A DNA stretch of 64,000 nt from SAR324 cluster bacterium REDSEA-S27_B3 (GTDB lineage: Bacteria; SAR324; NAC60-12). The stretch lies in NCBI GenBank assembly GCA_001627865.1, contig LUQO01000015.1:1-64000 (forward strand). Reading direction: 5' to 3'. The notes beneath the pieces are model-generated. The model was not told where the DNA came from and made no database searches. It saw only the letters and a program-made list of their open reading frames with translations. Shown one piece after another: positions 12,644-60,600 of this stretch. The position numbers and the translations under genes were made by a program. Numbering within the stretch: position 1 is the first letter of the stretch; each line of letters begins with the position of its first letter.

Positions 12644-13687
12644 ATGGGCACCTGGAACAAGCCACCAAAAAAATCACCGTGGGAAAAAGGCACACCGCCT
12701 CCTGACATTGATGAACTTCTGAACAATCTTCAAAATAAGTTTAAGATTGGACTTCCAAAAAAAGGGGGTCTGACTTTCATTATAATAGTGGCAGTTGTCG
12801 TCTGGTTGGCAACAGGGGTTTTTATTGTTGATCCGGAAGAACAGGGTGTTATCAAGAGATTTGGTGAAGTGACAAATGTGGTTGGCCCAGGCCCCCATTA
12901 TCATTTACCTTCTCCAATTGAAACGGTACAGATTGCTCCTGTCACGGCGGTGAGGAGACTTGAAATTGGCTTCCGCACAATTCAGATTGGACCTCCTGCC
13001 AAATATCGCCGTGTGTTAAAAGAGTCATTAATGCTTACCGGAGATGAAAACATCATCGATGTGCAGTTCATTGTCCAATACCGTATTTCTGATCTGGAAA
13101 ATTATCTTTATAGCCTTACTAATCCAGATGAGACTGTTAAATCAGCAGCAGAATCTGCCATGCGCGAAGTCATCGGTGACACTACTGTTACTGAAGCACT
13201 GACTGTAGGTAAGGGAGTTATTGAAGATACCACCGCAAGGCTTCTTCAGCAAACAATGAACAGCTACAAAGGCGGAATAAAGATTGAGAATGTGAAGCTT
13301 CAGGATGTGCATCCGCCTGATGAAGTCAAAGAAGCATTTAAGGATGTAGTCAGTGCTCGTGAGGACCGTGAAAAAATGATCAATGACGCGGAAGGCTACA
13401 GGAACAATCTTGTGCCAAAGGCCAGAGGTGAAGCCGCGCAGGTGATCAACAATGCCAAGGCTTATGCCAAAGAAAAGATACTTGTTGCAACAGGTGAAAC
13501 AGAGCGTTTCAACATGGTCTATGAAGAGTATATCAAGGCCAAAGACATTACACGCGAACGTATTTTGCTTGAGACAATGGCAAGTGTGCTGCCCAAAGTG
13601 AACAAGGTGATTGCAGATAAAGACCTTGGTGGTAATGTTCTTCCTTTCCTGCCGCTCAACCAGCAATTGAATCAACTGAATAAGTAA
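12644..13687 (+). CDS. hflK: HflK-type SPFH membrane protein
   Basis: A 347-residue SPFH/prohibitin-family protein. A proline-rich cytoplasmic N-terminus (WNKPPKKSPWEKG) is followed by one membrane helix (~43-63), the SPFH domain (~65-260, with VDPEEQGVIKRFGE) and a helical tail rich in alanine and charged residues. HflK normally pairs with HflC to form a membrane cage around the FtsH protease. Here no hflC follows: the next gene is the peroxiredoxin. The ribosome-binding site AAAGG is good. Confidence 0.88.
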   Translation: MGTWNKPPKKSPWEKGTPPPDIDELLNNLQNKFKIGLPKKGGLTFIIIVAVVVWLATGVFIVDPEEQGVIKRFGEVTNVVGPGPHYHLPSPIETVQIAPVTAVRRLEIGFRTIQIGPPAKYRRVLKESLMLTGDENIIDVQFIVQYRISDLENYLYSLTNPDETVKSAAESAMREVIGDTTVTEALTVGKGVIEDTTARLLQQTMNSYKGGIKIENVKLQDVHPPDEVKEAFKDVVSAREDREKMINDAEGYRNNLVPKARGEAAQVINNAKAYAKEKILVATGETERFNMVYEEYIKAKDITRERILLETMASVLPKVNKVIADKDLGGNVLPFLPLNQQLNQLNK

Positions 13688-13752
13688 CTCCGCAGAGAAT
13701 AAAAGCACTCCAAAAACTTCTTCACGGACAGTTAACAAATATTTTAATAACT

Positions 13753-13783
13753 CTGAAATCGTTTTGGTTTCAGAATTATTTTT
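13753..13783 (+). terminator. Probable terminator after hflK
   Basis: CTGAAATC (13753-13760) pairs with GGTTTCAG (13766-13773), 8 bp with one G-T wobble and a 5-nt loop, followed by a T-rich run. It separates hflK from the peroxiredoxin gene, which would then need its own promoter. Confidence 0.55.
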
Positions 13784-13807
13784 GTAACAAGTTTAAATGA
13801 GGTATGT

Positions 13808-14266
13808 ATGATTGCAGTTGGTTCACAGGCTCCGGATTTTAAATTAGCCAGCCAGTTTGATACTGAGTTCACGTTAAGTCAATTCAAGGGGTCAAAAAAC
13901 GTGATGCTGGTGTTTTATCCGTTGGATTGGACTCCCACCTGAAGCAGAGAAATTCCAAAAATTGAATCGATGATTGATCGATTCAATGAGGCAGACACTC
14001 AAGTATTGGGTGTGAGCATTGACAGTAAGCATTCACATAAAAAATGGGCTGAATCTCTCGGCGGTGTGTCTTATCCGCTGCTTCAGGATTTCCATCCAAA
14101 AGGCGAAATGGCTGCTTCTTATGGAAATTATTTGGAGAATAAAGGTTTCATTGCAAGATCAACAGTTATTGTTGACAAGCAGGGAGTGGTGAGATTTTCC
14201 GTTATGGCAGACGGAGAGCGCATCATCAGTGAGCTTTTAGCCGAGTGTAAAAAGATAAACGACTAA
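13808..14266 (+). CDS. Predicted selenocysteine-containing peroxiredoxin (BCP/Prx family), UGA read as Sec45
   Basis: A 152-residue peroxiredoxin read from ATG 13808 to the stop at 14264-14266, with an in-frame TGA at 13940-13942 taken as selenocysteine 45. The translation is continuous across the TGA: N-terminal APDFKL, central YPLDWTPT-Sec-SREIP, then VLGVSIDSKHSHKKWAES and the catalytic-arginine element ARSTVIVDKQG. The TGA falls exactly at the peroxidatic cysteine of the PxxxTxxC motif. A SECIS-like hairpin follows. Function by family: reduction of hydrogen peroxide or organic peroxides in the cytoplasm, possibly through thioredoxin. The only remaining Cys is near the C-terminus (AECKK). 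A nonsense mutation is the alternative, but the position and hairpin argue against it. Confidence 0.85.
13961..13987 (+). promoter_or_regulatory. Bacterial SECIS-like hairpin in the peroxiredoxin coding sequence
   Basis: ATTGAATCGAT (13961-13971) and ATCGATTCAAT (13977-13987) are perfect 11-bp complements around the loop GATTG (13972-13976). The loop begins with G, and it starts 29 nt after the UGA. Both match the usual bacterial SECIS pattern of a stem-loop with a G early in the loop about 16-37 nt after the UGA. It would recruit SelB with Sec-tRNA. Confidence 0.75.
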
Positions 14267-14422: not shown

Positions 14423-14974
14423 CTAAACTAAATCTTCTGAAAGCGCTTTTTTTTGCTCATTTGTGAGAGAGGCCTCCACTTTCAACAAAGGAAAATCTGA
14501 ACCAATTGCGCAGGGGGTTTTGCCTTCAGTGTTGAACTTAATGTATTGTACAGAGGACAGTCGAGTATCTCCAATTTGCCTCTCGTCAATAGCAGCCCTG
14601 CACCTAGTATCATCTCCCAGCCTGAGATAAAGATGTTTGGGCAAATCAAGCCACTGGGTCAGTTTTTCATCTCTTTCTTCCGGATCATCAATTTCGATTA
14701 AAAGCGTACATCCCAACTCACCGGAATTTCCAAGAAGTTCATTGTATGTTTTTATCTCATGCTGGATGTCTGCCTCTTTTACAATGCGTTCAACCCGAAT
14801 CATTTCCTGTATTTGATAACGTATTGTATCTGTGTTTTCAAACAGGAATGACAAAATGCCGCCAACATTAATCCGCCGCAGCTCCTTGATCTTCATTATT
14901 TTTTTGCGGATCTGGTCTCGCTGTTCTTCGTAAGTTACATAATCCAATATCTCTTGCCGTCTGACATGCTTCAT
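14423..14974 (-). CDS. DUF3501 family protein
   Basis: A 183-residue protein matching the DUF3501 family: an N-terminal RQEILDYVTYEEQRDQIR, then a segment with FLFENTDTIRYQIQEM, and a beta-rich C-terminus. Family members are usually encoded beside a rubrerythrin and a GlpC-like Fe-S oxidoreductase, exactly as here, which suggests a peroxide- or metal-stress role. No catalytic motif can be assigned. It is the last gene of the operon, 52 nt after the oxidoreductase. Confidence 0.8.
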   Translation of the reverse strand: MKHVRRQEILDYVTYEEQRDQIRKKIMKIKELRRINVGGILSFLFENTDTIRYQIQEMIRVERIVKEADIQHEIKTYNELLGNSGELGCTLLIEIDDPEERDEKLTQWLDLPKHLYLRLGDDTRCRAAIDERQIGDTRLSSVQYIKFNTEGKTPCAIGSDFPLLKVEASLTNEQKKALSEDLV

Positions 14975-15026: not shown

Positions 15027-16343
15027 TTAACGATAAGCCTCTGCAAGGATGGACATTGGATGTTTTGGTTTCACACCGGCATGCTGTTTGAACTGGAGCG
15101 CCGCCAGCGGACAATCGGTTGCCCATACTTCTGTTTCTTCTGTTTTCATTCCATCAAATGATTTTTTGCCGATACGTTTGGACGCCTCAAAGCTTTCAAC
15201 TTTCATGGCATAAGTCCCGTCATGACCACAGCATTCCATTACAGTTTTTATTTTTGATCCAGTGATTTTTTTTATTAAGTCTCGTCCCTTAAACCCGATT
15301 CCCTGGGCCCTTAAATGACAGGGGGCGTGATAGCTGATAGTTTCAGCTGGAAGTTTATTGGTGTCCGTGTTGAATCTTTCTTCTTTCCGAATATTCCATA
15401 AAAATTCTGATGGATCGTTGATAGAGTCAGCTAATTTAATGGCTCTTTCTCGATCGTGTCCTTCCAGCAGTTCCGGATATTCTCGTCTCATCATCATAGA
15501 ACAAGTGGGATTGATTGCCAGAACCTTGCTGCCTTTTTCAACAAACGGCATCAGGATGTCAAGATTGTGTTTGGCATTTGCTTGCAATGTTTCCAGATCT
15601 CCCTGTTCCCATGCAGGCATGCCGCAACATCTCAATCCTTTGACGCAAGCACAGTCAACTTTGTTTTTATTTAACACTTCCAGCGTGTCTTTGCCAATTT
15701 GCGGTTCATTGTGCTGGACATAACATGTTTGAAACAAAACGGTTTCAGCCTTACTATTTTTTCTAATCAGTCCCAGTCTTGCCGCCCAATGTTCAAATGT
15801 GGAAAAACTGAAATCCGGAAGCAATTTTTTTCTATGAATGCCCAGAATTTTTTCCAAAAACCATCGATGGATGCTGACTCGATTCATTACATTTGCTAAC
15901 CCGAAGCTCGCACGAGCCATACCGGCAGATTTTTCAGGGTTTGCTAAAATACTGTCACGCAGACTGCCTGGTTTATCCTTGGAATTAACAGCTTTATAGC
16001 GATGTACCAGTTTAGGAAAATCGAGTTTAAATTCATGTCCATCACGTACTGAATAAGGACATTGCACCTCGCATAATTTACACTGAAAACACGCATCCAT
16101 GATTTGTTGTGTGTCTTCAGGTTTAATTTTTTTTACCTCACCATTGTATTGTTTGTCCAAAAAACTGAAGAGCGTGGGGAAGGAGTCACAATATTTAAAG
16201 CACATTCTGCAGCCATGGCAAATTTCGAAGGTCCTTTCAATTTCTTTATCCATGGCAGATTTATCCCAATACTTTGAATCACCGGGATCATAAGTCAGTC
16301 CGTCGGTTGGTAAATAAGAAATTCTGGAATGATTGTCTTCCAT
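15027..16343 (-). CDS. GlpC/HdrD-like (Fe-S)-binding oxidoreductase with CCG domains
   Basis: A 438-residue protein. The N-terminal part binds two [4Fe-4S] clusters (CHGCRMCFKYC near residue 40 and CFQCKLCEVQC near 87). Two CCG-type cysteine-rich domains follow, with the motifs LRCCGMPAWEQG near 240 and ECCGHDGTYAMK near 370. This layout is shared with GlpC and heterodisulfide reductase subunit D. In rubrerythrin-DUF3501 operons such proteins are thought to pass electrons, perhaps to the rubrerythrin; that is inference. It is 78 nt from the rubrerythrin gene. Confidence 0.85.
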   Translation of the reverse strand: MEDNHSRISYLPTDGLTYDPGDSKYWDKSAMDKEIERTFEICHGCRMCFKYCDSFPTLFSFLDKQYNGEVKKIKPEDTQQIMDACFQCKLCEVQCPYSVRDGHEFKLDFPKLVHRYKAVNSKDKPGSLRDSILANPEKSAGMARASFGLANVMNRVSIHRWFLEKILGIHRKKLLPDFSFSTFEHWAARLGLIRKNSKAETVLFQTCYVQHNEPQIGKDTLEVLNKNKVDCACVKGLRCCGMPAWEQGDLETLQANAKHNLDILMPFVEKGSKVLAINPTCSMMMRREYPELLEGHDRERAIKLADSINDPSEFLWNIRKEERFNTDTNKLPAETISYHAPCHLRAQGIGFKGRDLIKKITGSKIKTVMECCGHDGTYAMKVESFEASKRIGKKSFDGMKTEETEVWATDCPLAALQFKQHAGVKPKHPMSILAEAYR

Positions 16344-16421: not shown

Positions 16422-16841
16422 TCAGGAAACGCTGTCTGCAAATTGCTGAAATCGGCCTGCATGAGATTTTTCTGCTTTTGCCAGTGTTTCAAACCAGTCG
16501 GCAATCTCAGCAAATCCTTCTTCTCGAGCAGTTTTGGCCATTCCTGGATACATATCTGTGTATTCATGTGTCTCACCTGCTACGGCAGCTTTTAAATTTT
16601 CCAGAGTTTCTCCAATAGGTAAACCTGTTGCAGGGTCACCAACTGCTTTCAAATAATCCAGGTGTCCATGTGCGTGCCCTGTTTCTCCCTCTGCAGTTTC
16701 ACGAAAATTACTTGCAATCTCAGGATAACCCTCAATGTCTGCTACTTTAGCAAAATAAAGATAACGTCTGTTTGCCTGAGATTCTCCTGCAAATGCTGCT
16801 TTGAGATTTTCGTGAGTTTTTGTGTCATTTAAATTAGCCAT
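16422..16841 (-). CDS. Rubrerythrin lacking the rubredoxin domain
   Basis: A 139-residue ferritin-like di-iron protein. Both iron-binding helix pairs are present: FAGESQANRRY (~16) with ETAEGETGHAHGH (~48), and AAVAGETHEY (~85) with AKAEKSHAGRF (~120). These supply the Glu and His ligands of a peroxide-reducing di-iron site. Classical rubrerythrins have a C-terminal rubredoxin domain; this one ends without it, so another protein must supply electrons. The operon partner Fe-S oxidoreductase is the obvious candidate. The gene is first in the operon and divergent from oxyR. Confidence 0.9.
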   Translation of the reverse strand: MANLNDTKTHENLKAAFAGESQANRRYLYFAKVADIEGYPEIASNFRETAEGETGHAHGHLDYLKAVGDPATGLPIGETLENLKAAVAGETHEYTDMYPGMAKTAREEGFAEIADWFETLAKAEKSHAGRFQQFADSVS

Positions 16842-17017: not shown

Positions 17018-17953
17018 ATGAATTTGAGAGATCTGGAATATCTTGCAGCAATTGATGAATTAAAACATTTTCGAAAAGCTGCCGAGAAATGTTTTGTAAG
17101 CCAACCTACTTTGAGTGGACAGCTAAAAAAATTGGAAGAAGAAATTGGTGTACAGCTGGTTGAACGTACAACCAGGAATGTCTTTTTAACACCAATTGGC
17201 AAAGAAATTGTCAAAATAGCCCGGTCGATTTTAACTGAAGCGGCATCCATTGAAGACCTGGTTAAAACCTATTCAGATCCGATGAGTGGTACAGTCAATA
17301 TTGGACTGATTCCAACTATAGCCCCTTATCTGTTACCCCTGATCGTCCAGCCTATAAAACAAACCTATCCTCAACTGGAAATAATACTACATGAAGTTCA
17401 AACAGAAGTTATGCTGAAAAAACTTGGTGAAGGATCATTGGACGCGGGAATCTTAGCTGTCCCTGTAGAAATGAAAGGGCTCGAAGAGATTATTCTTTAC
17501 ACTGAACCTTTTTATGTAGCAACCAACAATCAACACCCATTTGCTTCTAAATCAAAGATAAAGAAAGAGGATTTGCGTGGTGAAACTTTACTTTTACTAG
17601 GTGAAGGTCATTGTCTGAGAGGACAGGTTTTGGATGTTTGCTCAGATGCCATGACCAAAGAAAGAAAAGATTTCCAGGGTACAAGTCTGGAAACAATCAG
17701 GCATATGGTTTCAACAGGGATTGGTATTACCCTGATTCCTCAAACTGCAATTGATAAAAATAATGTAATTCAAAATTCTACAATTAATTACATTCCATTT
17801 AAAAAACCTGCACCCGCCAGAAATGTCGGTTTATTATTTCGTAAAACTTCAAACAGAAAGGTGTGTTTTCAAAATTTGGCTGTTTCGATTCAAAATATCA
17901 TTCAAAAAGAATTCTCATTCAAAGAAACTGTTGAGGTTTTTCCAGTACATTGA
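17018..17953 (+). CDS. oxyR: OxyR hydrogen-peroxide-sensing transcription regulator
   Basis: A 311-residue LysR-family regulator. The winged helix-turn-helix is at residues 1-60 (FRKAAEKCFVSQPTLSGQ), the effector domain follows. Counting from the ATG at 17018, the redox pair falls at Cys199 and Cys208 in GEGHCLRGQVLDVC, the same positions as in E. coli OxyR. That agreement and the usual MNLRDLEYL beginning decide this start over an in-frame ATG 84 nt upstream at 16934. Oxidation of the pair by peroxide switches the protein to an activator. It is divergent from the rubrerythrin operon, its likely target. Confidence 0.93.
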   Translation: MNLRDLEYLAAIDELKHFRKAAEKCFVSQPTLSGQLKKLEEEIGVQLVERTTRNVFLTPIGKEIVKIARSILTEAASIEDLVKTYSDPMSGTVNIGLIPTIAPYLLPLIVQPIKQTYPQLEIILHEVQTEVMLKKLGEGSLDAGILAVPVEMKGLEEIILYTEPFYVATNNQHPFASKSKIKKEDLRGETLLLLGEGHCLRGQVLDVCSDAMTKERKDFQGTSLETIRHMVSTGIGITLIPQTAIDKNNVIQNSTINYIPFKKPAPARNVGLLFRKTSNRKVCFQNLAVSIQNIIQKEFSFKETVEVFPVH

Positions 17954-60371: not shown

Positions 60372-60380
60372 GTAAATTAC

Positions 60381-60470
60381 TTCGTTAGGGGTGGCGGTTT
60401 TGAAAAAATGAGACCTCCTGAGAAAGTCCCTTGGAACCTGATCCAGATCATGCTGGCGCAGGAAAACGAC
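60381..60470 (+). ncRNA. TPP riboswitch (THI element)
   Basis: The leader contains the conserved parts of the thiamine-pyrophosphate aptamer in order: AGGGGTG at 60387-60393, CTGAGA at 60418-60423 and GAACCTGATC at 60434-60443 with the closing GCTGGCGCAGG (60452-60462). CGTT (60383-60386) can pair with AACG to close P1. It precedes thiB. A CCTCC stretch (60524-60528) is complementary to the thiB ribosome-binding site GGAGG (60591-60595), so a translational switch is possible. Confidence 0.92.
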
Positions 60471-60600
60471 ATTTCCTCTTTTGCTGTTTCTGCAATCTGT
60501 TCCCATCATTTTCCTTTCTCATCCCTCCGAAGATCATGGTTTATGTGTTTCCGGAATTTCCGGTGACTTGCTGGTTCTAACTTATAAACTGGAGGTTGTT

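Follow-up and report, generated by a model that had tools for sequence, protein, structure and literature searches.

A predicted selenocysteine-containing, AhpE-like peroxiredoxin in the SAR324 cluster

The gene at positions 13808–14266 (+) of the 64-kb window, the whole stretch of DNA analysed here, most probably encodes a genuine selenoprotein, a small AhpE-like peroxiredoxin in which the peroxidatic residue is selenocysteine (Sec). The Sec would be inserted by way of SelA, SelB, SelD and a hairpin downstream of the UGA codon, and the enzyme would work by a one-Sec cycle. We put the probability of this reading at roughly 0.95. The window comes from contig C7 of a 3.3-Mb assembly, 88% complete, which is a SAR324-cluster MAG, as are its nearest relatives.

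The predicted product is 152 residues long when the in-frame TGA at 13940–13942 (+) is translated as Sec, which places U45 in the motif PLDWTPTU. A Shine-Dalgarno-like GAGG (13799–13802, +) is found on direct reading of the sequence 5 nt upstream of the ATG. The read-through product matches the Pfam family AhpC-TSA (4.3e-36) over residues 4–130, with the UGA inside the match. The initial annotation had described a peroxiredoxin frame that crosses the TGA exactly at the catalytic Cys of PxxxTxxC, and its coordinates are exact. The AhpC/TSA fold is accompanied by the PxxxT(S)xxC/U motif, here P38-xxx-T42-xx-U45, and by the conserved Arg, here R117; these four residues match the active site of peroxiredoxins. 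No further selenoprotein was found among the 4 frames inspected out of the 40 longest read-through frames listed for the window, which look like either two genes in one frame or ordinary TGA ends.

Searching all 52 genomes of the phylum turned up 19 close genes, one of them that of the window, and each has exactly one TGA within the match. Codon 45 could be aligned in 18 of the 19 and in a gene from Candidatus Binatia (L055), and is TGA throughout; a second copy in genome G028 likewise has TGA at this codon. The 18 other SAR324 orthologous genes and the Binatia gene are 59–88% identical. Neither Cys nor any other sense codon was found at position 45 among these SAR324 and Binatia genes; apart from these two groups, the single scan of genome contigs yielded one distant hit. 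In the peroxiredoxin tree, the Sec orthologues form one all-Sec clade of 18 distinct rows (support 97/91). T42, U45 and R117 are invariant among the orthologues and the surrounding sequence is conserved. In one lineage (L027/L053, FYVLDWTSTU) P38 is replaced by Val. When compared with six orthologues, dN/dS is 0.03–0.08 upstream of the UGA (one comparison being saturated) and 0.04–0.21 downstream of it, and the part following the UGA is therefore a protein under selection.

The distribution of the gene has some irregularities. The Binatia gene is 64% identical and is placed inside the SAR324 clade, possibly owing to transfer or to a contaminated bin. Two sequences from family f4 (L034 and L037) fall inside the clade of family f1, which suggests either a transfer from one SAR324 family to another or an error in binning. 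The two copies in G028 are on different contigs (C71, L066; C184, L072) and possibly represent co-assembled strains. Of the genomes in which the gene was not found, those with most of hflK, its upstream neighbour (G015 and G022), have hflK no more than 160 bases from a contig end, and in the others hflK is missing or fragmentary, so that absence of the gene is not separable from gaps in the assembly.

The best PDB matches by sequence are to Mycobacterium tuberculosis AhpE (5e-28), and AhpE is also top in a fold search using the predicted structure, with 28–30% identity; the structure model is of moderate quality (pLDDT 75.7). AhpE (1xxu, 1xvw, 4x1u) and the SAR324 protein are alike in length, in fold and in the arrangement of P, T, Cp and R in the active site, and both have a single peroxidatic residue and no strictly conserved resolving Cys. 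This residue is Cys in AhpE and other peroxiredoxins, whereas it is Sec in the SAR324 protein. Being closest to AhpE by sequence and by fold, the protein is a likely member of the AhpE (1-Cys) subfamily; AhpE itself forms a long branch in the tree. None of the NCBIfam peroxiredoxin models reaches its cut-off with the SAR324 protein. The model NF040737, which we take to represent PrxU of Eubacterium (Peptoclostridium) acidaminophilum, has 233 positions as against 152 residues here, and gives 77.1 bits against a cut-off of 270, on which basis the protein was rejected as a PrxU equivalog or orthologue. That PrxU, described by Sohling et al. 2001 (cited in PMC13188914), has a peroxidatic Sec, as is predicted for the SAR324 protein.

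On the basis of sequence and predicted structure, we propose the following route. Selenophosphate would be made by SelD, which is itself UGA-containing; SelA would convert Ser-tRNA-Sec to Sec-tRNA-Sec; and SelB would deliver this to the UGA, the codon being marked by the hairpin that starts 18 nt downstream, so that Sec would be inserted at position 45. The protein would then be active as a peroxidase: Sec45, positioned by P38, T42 and R117, would attack H2O2 or an organic hydroperoxide, forming a selenenic acid, which an outside thiol or redoxin would then reduce. The outside reductant is proposed because the chain lacks a strictly conserved resolving Cys, and because the nearest solved relative, AhpE, is a 1-Cys enzyme.

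The protein does have one Cys, C147. Most orthologues share this residue, which is nearly invariant in A2 and could be suspected of resolving Sec45 as a selenenylsulfide, in a two-residue enzyme. However, it is replaced in L037 (AEVKK) and L055 (AEAQK), it is located in the C-terminal helix, and AhpE is titled a 1-Cys peroxiredoxin. We therefore consider a resolving role for C147 rather unlikely, and favour a one-Sec cycle with an external reductant.

The putative SECIS hairpin occupies 13961–13987 (+), and consists of an 11-bp stem (13961–13971 with 13977–13987) and the loop GAUUG (13972–13976), the DNA sequence being ATTGAATCGAT-GATTG-ATCGATTCAAT. The loop starts 29 nt beyond the UGA. No other perfect stem of 11 bp or more with a loop of 3–14 nt occurs in the window, and ten dinucleotide shuffles of the window contained 0, 0, 2, 0, 0, 0, 1, 0, 0 and 2 such stems (mean 0.5). 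It is thus unlikely that the one such stem would be placed directly after the UGA by chance. The 61 nt from the UGA have a folding energy of -14.5 kcal/mol (z -2.65). No Rfam match was obtained at the locus of the peroxiredoxin and hairpin. According to a recent review, the bSECIS model calls for a loop of 3–9 nt with a G in the first two positions, an upper stem of 4–16 bp, a distance of 16–37 nt between UGA and loop, and an MFE of -7.5 or lower (PMC13188914). The hairpin in the window has a loop of 5 nt with G first, 11 bp, a distance of 29 nt and -13.5 kcal/mol, and so agrees with all four published criteria. The initial annotation is thus borne out in the coordinates of the perfect stem, in the G-first loop, in the 18-nt spacing from the UGA, and in calling this distance normal for a bacterial SECIS element. 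It also described the hairpin as unusually regular, which is correct within the window, where no other such stem occurs, but the regularity is not kept across the orthologues.

It is this variability that could suggest that the stem is not a SECIS element at all, and that Sec is inserted by SelB using some other feature, the stem being an accident of the codons for IESMIDRFN. Among 12 relatives, 3 form the outermost pair of the stem, and 6–9 form some of the inner pairs. Covariation gives no support to the stem, with 78.0% of cells paired compared to 77.3% in shuffles and one two-sided change. The strict bSECIS criteria hold for just 4 of 18 clade members, and discriminate poorly across relatives (8 of 22, against 4.8 expected). 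On the other hand, the published model permits wide variation (PMC13188914), and what is conserved is of another kind. When the 51 nt after the UGA were compared with 1000 synonymous recodings per gene in 17 distinct orthologues, the mean z was -2.94 (-3.16 for the window gene), while control stretches of the same genes gave a mean z of -0.20. Better folding than in the recoded sequences is thus seen in most orthologues, and is confined to the stretch following the UGA; the combined value of this test (-12) overstates its significance because the species are related. Furthermore, 14 of 18 orthologues (1.8 expected) have a hairpin with 7 bp or more, an energy of -10 kcal/mol or lower and a loop 16–37 nt after the UGA, and this loop stays 25–30 nt from the UGA as the sequence changes. 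An accidental stem is on these grounds improbable, and we retain the hairpin as the likely SECIS element. The conserved feature is its placement, with the loop 25–30 nt after the UGA, and the regularity of the stem is incidental. The perfect 11-bp stem with G-first loop is peculiar to the SAR324 species at hand and its close relatives, and is not family-wide. Outside the genus the loops are mostly A-first and not G-first; A-first loops in place of the bSECIS G are found in L031, L033–L036, L038 and L055.

All the components for Sec insertion were found in the genome. There is a tRNA-Sec (57.5 bits, above the gathering score), also called by ARAGORN as tRNA-SeC with anticodon TCA. SelB is encoded on contig C34 (385 bits) and SelA on C45 (510 bits), both above cut-off. 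SelD (362 bits) is on the window's own contig, at C7:72547–73470 (L018), about 8.5 kb past the end of the window, and adjoins an elongation-factor-G-like gene. Its frame holds one TGA, within SCGUAAKFGP, presumably at the usual active-site Cys/Sec position of the family. The initial annotation had reasoned that selA, selB, selC and selD must be present elsewhere in the genome, and had named their absence, or a lack of Sec/Cys at this site in homologues from sister genomes, as signs of a nonsense mutation; all four genes turned up on searching, and in the sister genomes the catalytic codon is still TGA. Standard gene callers would indeed stop at the TGA and restart at 13970, but that the gene is a pseudogene, or makes a truncated 44-aa product, is extremely improbable in view of a TGA that all orthologues share, in several genera and in another phylum, the strong purifying selection downstream of it and the complete Sec machinery. 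A genome-wide reassignment of TGA, for example to Trp or Gly, has in its favour only the read-through of the TGA at 13940–13942, and can be dismissed with similar assurance: this TGA falls exactly at the peroxidatic Cys position, tRNA-Sec and SelA, SelB and SelD are present, and TGA ends 29 of the 57 large ORFs in the window, more than any other stop, which means that the code is not reassigned.

Sec use extends well beyond this genome. selA is above cut-off in 43 of the 52 SAR324 genomes, which shows that the Sec trait is general in the phylum. Among the papers searched, a single one brings SAR324 and selenocysteine together, and it records two SAR324 single-cell genomes as orphan SelD organisms (PMC5029168). 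Given the frequency of selA across the 52 genomes, this listing may reflect incomplete assemblies and not a SelD-only trait.

The gene is preceded by hflK (12644–13687, +; TIGR01933, 284.9 bits, above cut-off), which lies outside the proposed mechanism. A terminator-like hairpin 3' of hflK (13752–13774, +), identified by a consensus scan only, would separate the two transcripts. Downstream of and convergent with the peroxiredoxin gene is a block encoding a DUF3501 protein (14423–14974, -; PF12007, 6.8e-53), a GlpC/HdrD-like Fe-S oxidoreductase (15027–16343, -; CCG and Fer4 domains, with NF008369 at 276.1 bits, below the cut-off of 278) and a short-form rubrerythrin of 139 residues (16422–16841, -; PF02915, 4e-30). 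It is followed by a divergent OxyR-type LysR regulator (17021–17953, +; NF008361 OxyR, 332 bits, above the cut-off of 329), which carries GHCLRGQVLDVC, resembling the OxyR redox-cysteine motif. Most genomes of the genus share this gene order, and in two genomes from another genus in the family the peroxiredoxin gene and the rubrerythrin block are divergently oriented. In L064, L065, L067, L068 and L072 the peroxiredoxin gene adjoins ilvN-ilvB, with no rubrerythrin beside the gene. The peroxide-defence island suggested in the initial annotation is thus seen in most of the genus and, as regards the rubrerythrin block, in another genus, but is absent beside the gene in several genomes. An association with peroxide defence is plausible, though not a constant one, and the gene may be linked to OxyR. 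Elsewhere in the window there is a TPP riboswitch (60377–60481, +), above its gathering score.

Sec is also predicted in other SAR324 peroxiredoxins. Matches with TGA at the peroxidatic codon include PrxQ/BCP-like proteins (TPGU and variants), an AhpC-like protein (FVUATE, L078) and a second AhpE-like clade in another SAR324 family. Beyond the group studied here, loci with predicted peroxidatic Sec are L078, L076, L079, L082–L084, L086, L087, L089–L091, L093 and L094. WUPKC thiol-disulfide proteins also occur in SAR324; the tree rows L085 and L088, labelled Cys, are such proteins, and their Sec falls off the aligned column. The peroxiredoxin tree needs five changes of Sec/Cys label, two of them forced by well-supported branches. 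We tentatively hypothesise that SAR324 uses selenium as its standard catalyst in defence against peroxides, with the AhpE-like group exclusively Sec, Sec separately replacing Cys in the PrxQ/BCP-like and AhpC-like groups, and the SECIS element keeping its position but not its loop sequence. Taken together these propositions are possible but less likely than not; if true, the A-first loops would imply that SelB has recognition rules unlike the G-first bSECIS model.

Peroxiredoxins of this kind are already known. In marine metagenomes, Prx (TxxU) ranks among the selenoprotein families of highest abundance (PMC1088965, PMC2398784), and the description of selenium peroxiredoxins as rare in the initial annotation is thus too strong for the sea. 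The metagenomic family and the SAR324 gene, compared by description, share PF00578, the TxxU motif, an in-frame UGA with a downstream hairpin and a marine origin. They differ in that the former derives from metagenome reads and was assigned to COG1225 in the first survey, whereas the latter can be assigned to a phylum and to an AhpE-like clade. The SAR324 gene is therefore a further member of a type abundant at sea, and what is added here is its assignment to SAR324, the all-Sec AhpE-like clade and the phylum-wide occurrence of selA. An abundant marine selenoprotein type is now placed in a widespread uncultured phylum. Because standard gene calling would split or drop such genes, both the selenium demand and the peroxide defence of SAR324 would be underestimated.
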